Shown here: positions 49,476 through 52,110 of the stretch, in pieces
How positions within the stretch are numbered: position 1 is the stretch's first letter
How the letters are laid out: each line of letters opens with the position of its first letter
Assembly (NCBI RefSeq): GCF_001613225.1
Contig: NZ_BDBY01000118.1
Coordinates: 1 to 64,000, forward strand
Reading direction: 5' to 3'
DNA from: Nocardia pseudovaccinii NBRC 100343
GTDB taxonomy: Bacteria > Actinomycetota > Actinomycetes > Mycobacteriales > Mycobacteriaceae
Length of the DNA stretch: 64,000 nt
Notes under the pieces: generated by a model
What the model saw: only the letters and a program-made list of their open reading frames with translations
Told to the model about the DNA's origin: nothing
Databases searched by the model: none
Translations under genes and position numbers: made by a program

Positions 49476-49937
49476 ATGTCGACCCATTTCGCTTATCCGG
49501 CAGGTAGACCCGCTGACCGTGACAAAACGGAACACGGTGAGCGCGTCGATATTTCGACCGTGCCCGGAGCTCGGATCATCCAATTCACGGTGAGCCATCC
49601 GCGTGGCGATGTCACGCTGGTGGTCGTCACGGGCGAGGTCGATCTGTGGACCGCGCCGCGACTACGGGACAAACTATTGCGTGCCTTCGGTTCTCGGGGC
49701 TCGATCATGGTCGTCGACCTGTCCCCGGTCACCTTCTTCGCCGCCGCCGGACTGGCGACCCTGATCGAGGCTCAGGCGGCGGCCGAAAAGGCCGACCGCC
49801 GAATGGTTTTGATCACCACGGTGCGCTGTGTCGATCGGGCCATCGAGCTCACCGGACTTGCCACGAACTTTCGCCGCGTCGGCTCCTTGGCCGCGGCGCT
49901 CGCGGACCCCGCACCGGGATGTGCCGCCCCGGTGTAG
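49476..49937 (+). CDS. STAS-domain protein lacking the phospho-serine
   Basis: 153 residues. A divergent N-terminal extension (about 1-35) is followed by an anti-sigma-factor-antagonist (STAS) domain: VTLVVVTGEVDLWTAPRLRD, IMVVDLSPVTFFAAAGLATL. In canonical antagonists the segment reads F-x-D-S-S-G-L, with Ser phosphorylated by the partner kinase. Here residues 89-91 are all Ala. It may therefore be constitutively active or bind a partner without phospho-control. No partner kinase gene is adjacent. Confidence 0.85.
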   Translation: MSTHFAYPAGRPADRDKTEHGERVDISTVPGARIIQFTVSHPRGDVTLVVVTGEVDLWTAPRLRDKLLRAFGSRGSIMVVDLSPVTFFAAAGLATLIEAQAAAEKADRRMVLITTVRCVDRAIELTGLATNFRRVGSLAAALADPAPGCAAPV

Positions 49938-49949
49938 GGTCCGCGTGAT

Positions 49950-51170
49950 TCAGCGGAACCGCGCCTCCACACGGGCACGCGCGTTCGCGATCCGTTCCTG
50001 CGCCAGCGCCGCCCGTTCCTCAGCCTTGTCGAGACGGCGCAGGGCCCTATCGACCCGCGGCTGTGCCTTCTTCCCACGCCGCTCCGCCTTCTTGGCCAAC
50101 CGCGCGCCGCGCTTCTGCGCCTTTTCCGAGATTTCGGCGCCGCGTACGCGTGCGGTCGAGGCGAGTTCCGGCCCGCGTTCCCTGGCGAGTTCGGCGATTT
50201 CGGTGCCGCGGTGCTGGGCCATTTCAGCCAGGTGCGCGCCGCGTTCCCGCGCGGTCGAGGCGATTCCGGGCCCGCGTTCCTTGGCGAGCTCCGTCAGCTC
50301 GATGCCGCGGTGCTGGGCCTTCTCGGCCAACCGCGCGCTACGTTTCTGTGCTTTGCCCGAGATTTCGGCGCCGCGTTCGCGTGCGGTCGAAGTGAGTTCC
50401 GGGCCGCGTTCCTTGGCGAGCTCCGCGAGGTGCACACTGCGCTCCCGCGCCGCCGCGGCGATTTCCGGCCCGCGCTCCTTGGCGAGCTCCGCGAATTCCG
50501 CCGCCTTCTCGGCCCACTTCGCACCGCGTTCCTTGGCCAGCTCGGCCCATTCCGGACCGTGTTCCCTTACCGTCTCCGCGATATCGGCCCCCCGCTCCTG
50601 CGCGACATCGCCGAGTTCGCGGGCCCGCACGGCGGCATCGTGAGCGCGGCGGCGCAGTGCGTCGCCGGTGGCCGAATCCGTTGCGGTGAACGGCAATGCG
50701 GCCGAAACCGCCGCCGTGGCATTGCTCGCGGCCCGTCGGCCACGCCAGCCGAGCGACGGCCTGCCCTCGGTGTCCGCGCTGGCGATCATCAGACCGCCGA
50801 GCAGACTCACATCCTTGACGAAGGCCTTGCGCTTGGCCGCCTTGCGTTCCGGATCCTTTTCCGCCCAGAAGTCCTGTTCGGTGACCGTCGCGGGAATCAC
50901 CGTCGCGGCCAGGGTGAGCGAGGCCAGGCGCGGAAACTTACCGAGGGCGAGCAGCACACCGGCCGAGACCTGGGTGAGCGCATTGATCCGCACGAACGTC
51001 CCGGGATCCGCTGGCAATTTCGCGGCGATATTGTCGGGCAGCGACTGCTGTCCCTGCTGGACCAGGGCCGATGCCGCTTGGGTGCGCGGCTCGGGGTGGA
51101 CCAGCGCGTCGACCCCATCGGCGACGAACGCGGTCGCCAGCAGTGGTCGGGCAAATCGGCGTAGCAACAT
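49950..51170 (-). CDS. DoxX family membrane protein with long 11-residue-repeat tail
   Basis: 406 residues. The first 140 or so are a DoxX-type four-helix membrane domain (LLRRFARPLLATAFVADGVD, VRINALTQVSAGVLLALGKF, TEQDFWAEKDPERKAAKRKA). Residues about 189-371 consist of roughly sixteen tandem 11-residue units of the form LAKERGPELTS / TARERGAEISG / KAQKRSARLAE / KAQHRGIELTE, with one 7-residue slip. Such hendecads make long amphipathic helices or right-handed coiled coils. ATG 51170 has AAGGGAC upstream; the frame to 51224 lacks similarity. DoxX proteins are linked to redox or sulfur metabolism; the tail's role is unknown. Confidence 0.82.
   Translation of the reverse strand: MLLRRFARPLLATAFVADGVDALVHPEPRTQAASALVQQGQQSLPDNIAAKLPADPGTFVRINALTQVSAGVLLALGKFPRLASLTLAATVIPATVTEQDFWAEKDPERKAAKRKAFVKDVSLLGGLMIASADTEGRPSLGWRGRRAASNATAAVSAALPFTATDSATGDALRRRAHDAAVRARELGDVAQERGADIAETVREHGPEWAELAKERGAKWAEKAAEFAELAKERGPEIAAAARERSVHLAELAKERGPELTSTARERGAEISGKAQKRSARLAEKAQHRGIELTELAKERGPGIASTARERGAHLAEMAQHRGTEIAELARERGPELASTARVRGAEISEKAQKRGARLAKKAERRGKKAQPRVDRALRRLDKAEERAALAQERIANARARVEARFR
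50085..50500. repeat. 132-bp-periodic coding repeats in the DoxX tail
   Basis: The hendecad tail is built at DNA level from blocks of four 33-bp units. The block LAKERGPELTS...IELTE recurs almost intact as LARERGPELAS...KKAERRG, with a three-unit block between them. High nucleotide identity between blocks suggests recent slippage or unequal recombination, so copy number may vary between strains. Confidence 0.65.
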
Positions 51171-51246
51171 GACGTCCCTTTCCTCGATGGCTGAGGTTCG
51201 GGTAACCGCGTTCGGCGCCGTCAAACAACAAGATCAACACCCGGAA

Positions 51247-52110
51247 TCAAGGTTTGACCGGGTGTTCTGTCGCGCCGAACGGCCGTACCTCCGGACTGGA
51301 CAGAAAGGTGGTGATGATGTTCGTTACGGTCTCTGGATCCTCCACCATAGGCAGGTGGCCGCATTCCGTGAGCTGAATTCGGGTGTGCGGATGCAGTGTG
51401 TCGTCGAGTCGGGCGCCGGCCTGGGCCGACAGGATGCGGTTCTGCTCGCCCCAGATGGTGCAGATCGGCGGGAATCCCGGGCCGGGGTGGAAACCATCGA
51501 GGTCGGCATAGGTCGGGAAATCCTGCACCAGGCCGTGCAGCGCCTGCAACCGGCCCTTGTCGCCCCAATGTGCCATGAGACGCGGCGAGTGGTGCAGATC
51601 GCGCCGCCGCCCTTTCGCGCCGAGCTGGTCGGCGACGATCCGGGAGATGACCGCATCCGGCAGCGCCACCCTGCGGGCCACCGGCGCCAGCGGGAGTCTG
51701 GCATCGACCCAGGCCAGACCGGACTGGCGTCCGGCACGCATGGTGTTCCAGGTCAGGGGGTTGCACAGCACCAGAGCGCGCACGTTGTCCGGATGCGTCA
51801 TCGTGTAGCGCAGTGCGGTGGCGGCCCCCAGACAGTTGCCGATCAGCACGACATCGGTGAGTTCCTGTTCGGCCAGGAAGGCCTCGAGCATGCTGACGTA
51901 ATCGGCCAGGTGATAGCCGTCCGCGGGTTGGTCGGATTCGCCGTAACCGGGCAGATCCAGCGCGAATACCTCGTGCTCGTGCCGCAATTCGCCGACCTGA
52001 TCGTCCCAGATGTGGCGCTGGGCGCCCGCATTGTGCAGCAGGATGACCGGTGCGCCGCTGCCGACGCGGTCATAGACGACATCCCGACCGCGATGCGTGA
52101 AGATCGCCAC
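51247..52110 (-). CDS. Alpha/beta hydrolase with Cys nucleophile
   Basis: 287 residues with the alpha/beta hydrolase order: oxyanion region VILLHNAGAQRHIWDDQ, LDLPGYGESDQP, nucleophile elbow VVLIGNCLGAATALRYT, acid region FPPICTIWGEQNRILS and the His in LTECGHLPMVEDPE. The nucleophile position is Cys93, not Ser, as in dienelactone hydrolase. This changes the likely chemistry but leaves hydrolysis possible. Start ATG 52110 with GGAGG upstream. It lies 110 bp downstream of the amidohydrolase gene on the same strand, at the end of the catabolic cluster. Confidence 0.87.
   Translation of the reverse strand: MAIFTHRGRDVVYDRVGSGAPVILLHNAGAQRHIWDDQVGELRHEHEVFALDLPGYGESDQPADGYHLADYVSMLEAFLAEQELTDVVLIGNCLGAATALRYTMTHPDNVRALVLCNPLTWNTMRAGRQSGLAWVDARLPLAPVARRVALPDAVISRIVADQLGAKGRRRDLHHSPRLMAHWGDKGRLQALHGLVQDFPTYADLDGFHPGPGFPPICTIWGEQNRILSAQAGARLDDTLHPHTRIQLTECGHLPMVEDPETVTNIITTFLSSPEVRPFGATEHPVKP

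Follow-up and report, generated by a model that had tools for sequence, protein, structure and literature searches.

Plin4, whose 33-residue repeats run uninterrupted, needs more than 66 residues to bind lipid droplets and binds better with increasing length; its hydrophobic moment is 0.257 and its hydrophobic, aromatic and charged fractions are 0.35, 0.002 and 0.15, the corresponding values for apoA-I being 0.39, 0.40, 0.065 and 0.35 (PMC5889406). The bacterial droplet proteins MLDS, TadA and LPD06283 are reported to contain an apolipoprotein-type domain and to alter droplet size (PMC5504291, PMC3902926, PMC6176652). Among DoxX proteins, Rv3005c has been described in a complex with SodA and SseA (PMC6930017, PMC8562490), a genetic link has been reported for this redox complex (PMC8846590), and the wording of one text suggests that a different DoxX protein, Rv2617c, is the complex member (PMC10943396).

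Here we analyse a gene of Nocardia pseudovaccinii NBRC 100343 in which a DoxX domain is fused to a long run of 11-residue repeats. Each element is known by itself; their fusion, and its family-wide form of variable length, appear undescribed as far as our literature searches reach, since none of the matches listed, in a search that left most subscription journals outside its scope, concerned an 11-residue-repeat tail on a DoxX protein.

A DoxX-type gene with a repetitive tail

The window, i.e. the whole stretch of 64,000 nucleotides that was analysed (contig NZ_BDBY01000118.1), contains a complete doxX-type gene with the following parts and neighbours:

49950..51170, minus strand: complete doxX-type gene with an 11-residue-repeat tail; translation of 406 aa, ATG start
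51176..51185, minus strand: probable ribosome-binding site GAGGAAAGGG, 5 nt 5' of the ATG, inferred from the sequence
50727..51170, minus strand: DoxX domain, residues 1-148, with four probable membrane helices (Pfam, model, conservation)
50631..50726, minus strand: linker, residues 149-180 (model confidence lowest at 159-164)
50082..50630, minus strand: sixteen 11-residue units, residues 181-363 (profile), regular from residue 192 (position 50597)
50511..50531, minus strand: seven residues (214-220) between units, giving one 18-residue step (unit positions in the profile)
50201..50202, minus strand: site, between residues 323 and 324, of 22 extra residues in the Nocardia vinacea homologue (alignment)
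49953..50087, minus strand: basic C-terminal segment, residues 362-406, net charge +8 (charge count)
51247..52110, minus strand: alpha/beta hydrolase (named by eye), upstream neighbour; a homologue lies near doxX in several Nocardia loci
49476..49937, plus strand: STAS-type protein (named by eye), downstream neighbour, kept in some relatives

The 406-aa open reading frame matches Pfam DoxX (PF07681) over residues 6-97 at 36.4 bits (cut-off 23.6), which bears out the identification of a DoxX membrane protein in an earlier note on this DNA, and the domain is conserved over 25 relatives. Fourteen places in the same genome carry a DoxX domain; a search with the tail found no second tail-bearing gene there, the next match (E 0.012) having stops inside. 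Antisense to the repeats runs an open frame of 271 codons (49828-50643, plus strand), probably an effect of the codon composition of the opposite gene.

We found no constant gene partner across the Nocardia, Rhodococcus and Mycobacterium loci compared. With genes named by eye or from their likeness to known ones, we take the Rhodococcus-type locus to hold uvrA, MBL-fold, HelR-like and stress-type genes near doxX, the Mycobacterium locus to hold pncA-like or thyA/dapA-like genes, and Nocardia to have several locus types. In 16 Nocardia loci (L108-L139), a universal-stress-type gene (named by eye) lies directly upstream of doxX on the same strand, at a distance of 79-84 nt in the 12 loci shown.

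A profile of the 11-residue unit locates 16 units in the tail, the first of them degenerate, and from residue 192 onwards the array is gapless except for the single 18-residue step. The tail matches itself at a lag of 11 with z = 10.8 against shuffles, the best lag being 22. The sixteen or so tandem repeats read from the sequence beforehand are thus confirmed, and their description as strict is nearly right, one step departing from 11.

At the DNA level the repeats are less alike than the earlier note had claimed: the 132-bp blocks that it held to be nearly identical reach 81% at best in an ungapped match, compared with 87% over 99 nt and 92% over 60 nt. Two further 174-nt copies from the repeat search match at 70% and 75%, and Tandem Repeats Finder returned periods of 33, 66 and 99 with matches of 56-84%. 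Codon identity within this array (0.44) is not above that between species (0.46). A recent DNA duplication as the cause of the repeats in this strain is therefore unsupported, both by the 132-nt identity and by codon identity. Over 129 arrays, codon identity is 0.51 within arrays versus 0.46-0.50 between them, and identity within exceeds identity between in 121 of the 129 arrays for residues and in 93 for codons. Homogenisation within arrays is measurable and modest, and at the codon level it is absent from the N. pseudovaccinii array.

Distribution of the tail among relatives

Of 59 genomes sampled from the genus Nocardia, 57 carry the domain, the two misses being one genome that is 78% complete and one (G024) rated 100% complete; across the order, a search at E 1e-10 recovered it in 242 of the 298 genomes sampled. 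The closest named relatives over the domain are N. vinacea (98%) and N. anaemiae (96%). In a weakly resolved tree of the N-domain with many open forks (148 columns, 101 rows), the family occupies one side of a branch. Its tails were taken from 183 loci, duplicates included; 181 have at least 60 residues, the other two being cut by a contig end, and 138 different proteins are left once open-ended and duplicate ones are removed.

The best lag, tested from 2 to 33, is 11, 22 or 33 in 137 of these 138 tails, with z > 5 in 128, so that the repeats are anything but absent from the orthologues, the outcome that the earlier note had named as fatal to its reading. The profile finds 1816 units in the 138 tails against 45 in shuffled tails, a comparison that favours the real tails because the profile was trained on them. 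Named carriers of 11-residue-repeat tails belong to Nocardia, Rhodococcus, Mycobacterium and Aldersonia; the tail is not peculiar to one strain.

The unit itself is not constant across genera. A similar unit is kept in genus g4 (z > 5 in 18 of 24 loci), and genus g5 (L273-L285) has a different 11-mer, in many of its tails approximately DAVEKAKPAIA, with z > 5 in 9 of the 13 loci scored. In genus g6 (Corynebacterium-like, L243-L272, genomes of 2.2-3.6 Mb), the tails are long yet contain just 0-3 units, with z > 5 in 4 of 30, which indicates that the 11-residue unit is not needed for the core function. The g6 tails use words such as YVDDNKDDW... and KPSKLQQFKAKRKV..., end in a basic segment and show little 11-residue period. 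Outside the family, 42 loci were compared, drawn from 41 of the roughly 188 genomes with a match; in 37 of these loci the tail is shorter than 60 residues and mostly a short basic end. Two of the five longer outside tails have a strong 11-residue periodicity in other words (L194 and L225), and these are possibly independent inventions; in L194, a unit of approximately SGLAHGAAHSA follows a DoxX domain.

All 48 relatives compared with Pfam match DoxX at E 0.01 or better, and 26 of the 48 also match SURF4 at that level. The copies at two loci (L063 in genome G027 and L064 in G013) have their domain spread over different frames or truncated where a contig ends, which may reflect assembly errors. 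Ten of the 16 matching plasmid records are from Rhodococcus, each with a relative that aligns with about 83% of the query, the identity being about 45% (45.4% in nine of them).

Gain and loss of whole units

The number of units per tail ranges from 0 to 42 (median 14) in the 138 different family tails and from 4 to 23 in the 60 different tails of the genus sample; the longest array found is that of an N. wallacei record (L126; 42 units, 705 residues). Counts vary between close species. The N. vinacea homologue (L095), whose N-domain is 98% identical, aligns with the N. pseudovaccinii protein over the entire tail apart from one clean indel of 22 residues, which are extra in N. vinacea. In 51 disjoint pairs with N-domain identities of 0.82 to 1.0, the repeat region has 61 gaps, of which 40 have a length that is a multiple of 11. 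Eight of the other 21 are of 4 residues, and 14 of the 21 stay within 50 degrees of the helical phase, an observation for which we claim no significance. The length difference is a multiple of 11 in 57 of 174 unequal close pairs, a set in which pairs overlap and end differences are included, so that we prefer the disjoint pairs. Array length thus changes via gain or loss of whole units. The earlier suggestion that the tail is expanding or contracting stands on this comparison of orthologues, and the argument from DNA identity on which it was originally based does not.

Design of the 11-residue unit

The consensus over the 138 family tails is E-R-G-A-E-L-A-E-T/V-A-R/K, with just a single large hydrophobic residue in each unit. 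The hydrophobic moment is greatest at 98.2 degrees, i.e. 3.67 residues per turn, both in the N. pseudovaccinii tail and as the median of the 129 tails with at least six units. On the corresponding wheel, position 6 (Leu in 61%, Trp in 17%), position 10 (Ala), position 3 (Gly) and position 7 (Ala) form the hydrophobic side. Arg 2 and Arg/Lys 11 flank this stripe, at -51 and +112 degrees from its centre, and the acidic positions 8, 1 and 5 lie opposite (Glu at 178, -150 and -117 degrees), an arrangement that we take to be the class A amphipathic layout.

Trp falls on position 6 in 311 of its 313 occurrences within the 1816 units, and Gly occupies position 3 in 1304 units, which suggests a helix formed on contact rather than a rigid rod. 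Pro occurs at position 4 in 253 units, at position 5 in 91 and elsewhere in only 4. In two neighbouring units, Pro-4 was observed once, versus 42 times (range 23-57) in 1000 within-array permutations, while pairs two units apart number 61 versus 38, four apart 57 versus 31, and three apart 33 versus 35. None of the 1000 permutations was as extreme at spacings of one, two and four units; these figures, from which the relatedness of the proteins was not removed, are not independent evidence per protein because related proteins share patterns. Apolipoproteins carry a Pro punctuation every 22 residues. The DoxX tails resemble them in Pro spacings of 22 or 44 and almost never 11, as well as in the basic residues that flank the stripe and the acidic ones opposite; punctuation of this type concerns only the 253 units with Pro-4, and many tails of genus g5 have Pro in every unit of their different 11-mer. 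Unit-to-unit steps are exactly 11 in 1596 of 1679 cases; the remaining 83 are most often 22 (24 cases) or 18 or 15 (30 cases together). Only three Cys residues occur across the 138 tails. The last 30 residues have a median net charge of +3, at least +3 in 92 of the 138 proteins.

In 33-residue segments, the family has a mean moment of 0.257 and hydrophobic, aromatic and charged fractions of 0.40, 0.03 and 0.36 (Fauchere-Pliska scale, three-turn 11-residue angle), which places the tail within the span of values that PMC5889406 lists for Plin4, synuclein and apoA-I, where the segment length may differ. For the N. pseudovaccinii tail, the moment over 33 residues (0.24) exceeds that of all 300 shuffles (maximum 0.224); over shorter segments of 11 and 18 residues it is 0.265 and 0.242, against shuffle means of 0.233 and 0.181, both within the shuffle maximum.

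The tail thus resembles Plin4 in its long run of 11-residue repeats readable as a three-turn helix, its weak hydrophobicity and a hydrophobic moment of 0.257 in both. It differs in being far more charged (0.36 vs 0.15), in having a net charge near zero where that of Plin4 is positive, in the Trp and Leu of its stripe, in the attached DoxX membrane domain, and in a register that is occasionally interrupted. In composition it is very similar to apoA-I (PF01442; hydrophobic 0.40 and charged 0.36 vs 0.40 and 0.35), from which it differs by its membrane anchor and by showing no sign of secretion. By analogy, the unit design is that of apolipoprotein, synuclein and perilipin helices, and the amphipathic, apolipoprotein- or perilipin-like character first noticed in the sequence gains support from the periodicity and charge layout, from where Trp and Pro are placed, and from the composition.

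The amphipathic 11-residue array is the perilipin-like feature present; the PAT domain of perilipins had no Pfam match in the 406-aa protein (E up to 1) or in the 48 relatives (E 0.01). Pfam Apolipoprotein did not match the 406-aa protein and matched 7 of the 48 relatives at E 0.01 or better (best 5e-4). These matches are not specific because unrelated families match the relatives as weakly (YtxH 4, Myb 3, HTH_35 2, and one Mce4_CUP1 at 2e-6). A resemblance to LEA proteins, also proposed before, found no backing, LEA_4 being absent from the 17 Pfam families listed for the 48 relatives (E 0.01).

Predicted structure and topology

AlphaFold models the N-domain confidently as helical, with long helices at 2-24, 56-76, 80-103 and 107-132 and a helix in the first loop (26-43). 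The tail is predicted to form a continuous helix over 166-405 with moderate confidence, the means per ten residues being 66-91 over 171-360 and 52-73 over 151-230; this long helix may represent the bound state only. A phmmer match to a designed ankyrin repeat (E 0.0026) was taken as low-complexity similarity, the model being one straight helix. In 97 proteins, the mean net charge is +2.1 at the N-terminus, +2.0 in loop 2-3 and +4.5 after helix 4, the two remaining loops having +0.1 and +1.3. The basic residues at these three places predict an N-in/C-in topology and a tail that is probably cytoplasmic; since loop 3-4 is likewise rich in Lys and Arg, the topology is not certain.

Foldseek returned no match below E 0.001, either for the whole model or for the N-domain alone, and a profile of the N-domain found no solved structure at E up to 1. 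The top match of the DoxX domain model is NACHO/TMEM35A (probability 0.95, TM about 0.5), a likeness that has an E of only 0.5 and 16% identity and that we treat as a lead.

Discussion

The reading that we favour, with a probability of roughly one half, is that the protein is a giant amphipathic helix anchored in the inner membrane, lying on its cytoplasmic side and binding lipid surfaces. The DoxX domain would hold a very long helix on the cytoplasmic face, where weakly hydrophobic, nearly neutral 11-residue units, each contributing little binding, would together provide a reversible grip, in the manner of Plin4 and the exchangeable apolipoproteins. The helix would most likely bind the plasma membrane on its inner leaflet, or a nearby lipid inclusion, and the basic end could contribute a further affinity for anionic lipid (or nucleic acid). 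Since a membrane anchor would raise the local concentration, few units could be enough for the tail to lie along the inner leaflet, and with many it could span the tens of nanometres to an inclusion. Such a protein may serve to coat membrane or inclusions, possibly under stress. Our computations establish the domain, the repeats with their stripe and charge layout, their conservation and the turnover of units; helix and topology are predictions, and lipid binding and role are inferred. Several findings weigh against this reading: the single large hydrophobic residue of each unit, the short-segment moment of the N. pseudovaccinii tail, which is little above that of shuffles, the nearly neutral net charge, the missing Apolipoprotein match, the g6 tails that do with so few units, and the Lys- and Arg-rich loop 3-4.

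Hendecad coiled coils share the 11-residue period and the 3.67 residues per turn, and the tails of several DoxX proteins could instead join along the Leu/Ala/Gly stripe into a right-handed coiled coil, forming a rod for holding a cytoplasmic partner or for clustering the membrane domain. The continuous helix of 240 residues in the single-chain model and the steps of 18 and 15 (11+7 and 11+4), which keep the stripe roughly aligned, are consistent with this, yet a stripe of small residues and one Leu, with Trp in 311 and Gly-3 in 1304 of the 1816 units and an Arg just 51 degrees from its centre, is poorly suited to a rigid core, and we regard a coiled coil as unlikely, while keeping it in view.

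Lipid binding may also be stated more ambitiously: the family as a whole would be a counterpart of perilipin and apolipoprotein helices on a DoxX (NACHO-like) anchor, coating or tethering nascent inclusions or membrane patches with a grip set by the number of units. This we offer as a speculation of low probability. More doubtful still is a function specific to inclusions, the protein being a membrane-to-droplet tether, a bacterial perilipin or an analogue of TadA and MLDS. Droplet binding of the tail is possible by analogy, its composition and moment being close to the values tabulated for Plin4 and apoA-I, and the apolipoprotein-type domains of MLDS, TadA and LPD06283 and their effect on droplet size point the same way. 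The lipid-inclusion proteins TadA, MLDS and HBHA of Rhodococcus and Mycobacterium are reported to have an apolipoprotein-type segment, and HBHA also a lysine-rich C-terminus, but the published descriptions compared here mention no DoxX domain for them. The R. opacus droplet study (PMC3902926) does not refer to DoxX in its main text, and literature linking DoxX to lipid droplets was not found in searches that covered few subscription journals. Against a droplet tether stand also the gene neighbours, which are not consistently lipid genes, and the anchor itself: a transmembrane segment cannot easily move onto a monolayer.

The tail might, at the other extreme, be a mostly disordered charged tether whose repeats drift by slippage under little constraint, with a basic end that binds nucleic acid or anionic lipid and an 11-residue unit of little function. 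The low model confidence over 151-230, the positive charge of the last 30 residues and the completely different wording of the tails in genus g6 agree with such a tether, whereas the position-specific composition of 1816 units, the Pro spacing and the 11-residue steps throughout 138 proteins are unexpected from drift, and make it improbable.

There remains the DoxX of the SodA-SseA-DoxX redox complex, with the tail incidental. Three of three mycobacterial genomes have, besides the tailed gene, a separate DoxX gene at what appears to be the place of Rv3005c, which we take from the H37Rv gene order to lie between lppZ and cfp6/ilvB, with neighbours named by eye; here genus g2 is considered to be Mycobacterium from near identity to M. 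gordonae loci. This second DoxX belongs to the same domain family but has an N-terminal extension, no 11-residue-repeat tail and another locus, so the Rv3005c redox complex should not be carried over to the tailed protein. Although the complex was reported for a member of the DoxX family common to both, the identity of the two is very improbable, given that another DoxX gene holds the Rv3005c place (as judged by locus) and that the N-domain lacks Cys in 133 of 138 family proteins.

In mycobacteria, the DoxX annotation therefore does not stand for a single protein: there are at least two, and just one of them is encoded at the place of the redox complex. The best-known giant lipid-binding helices of 11-residue repeats are those of animals (perilipins, synuclein, apolipoproteins), and the same design is found here on a membrane anchor. 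If the tail does bind lipid, the family would offer a natural series, from 4 to 42 units within Nocardia, for relating helix length to lipid binding, and would be a candidate for how Nocardia, Rhodococcus and Mycobacterium organise their membranes or storage lipid.
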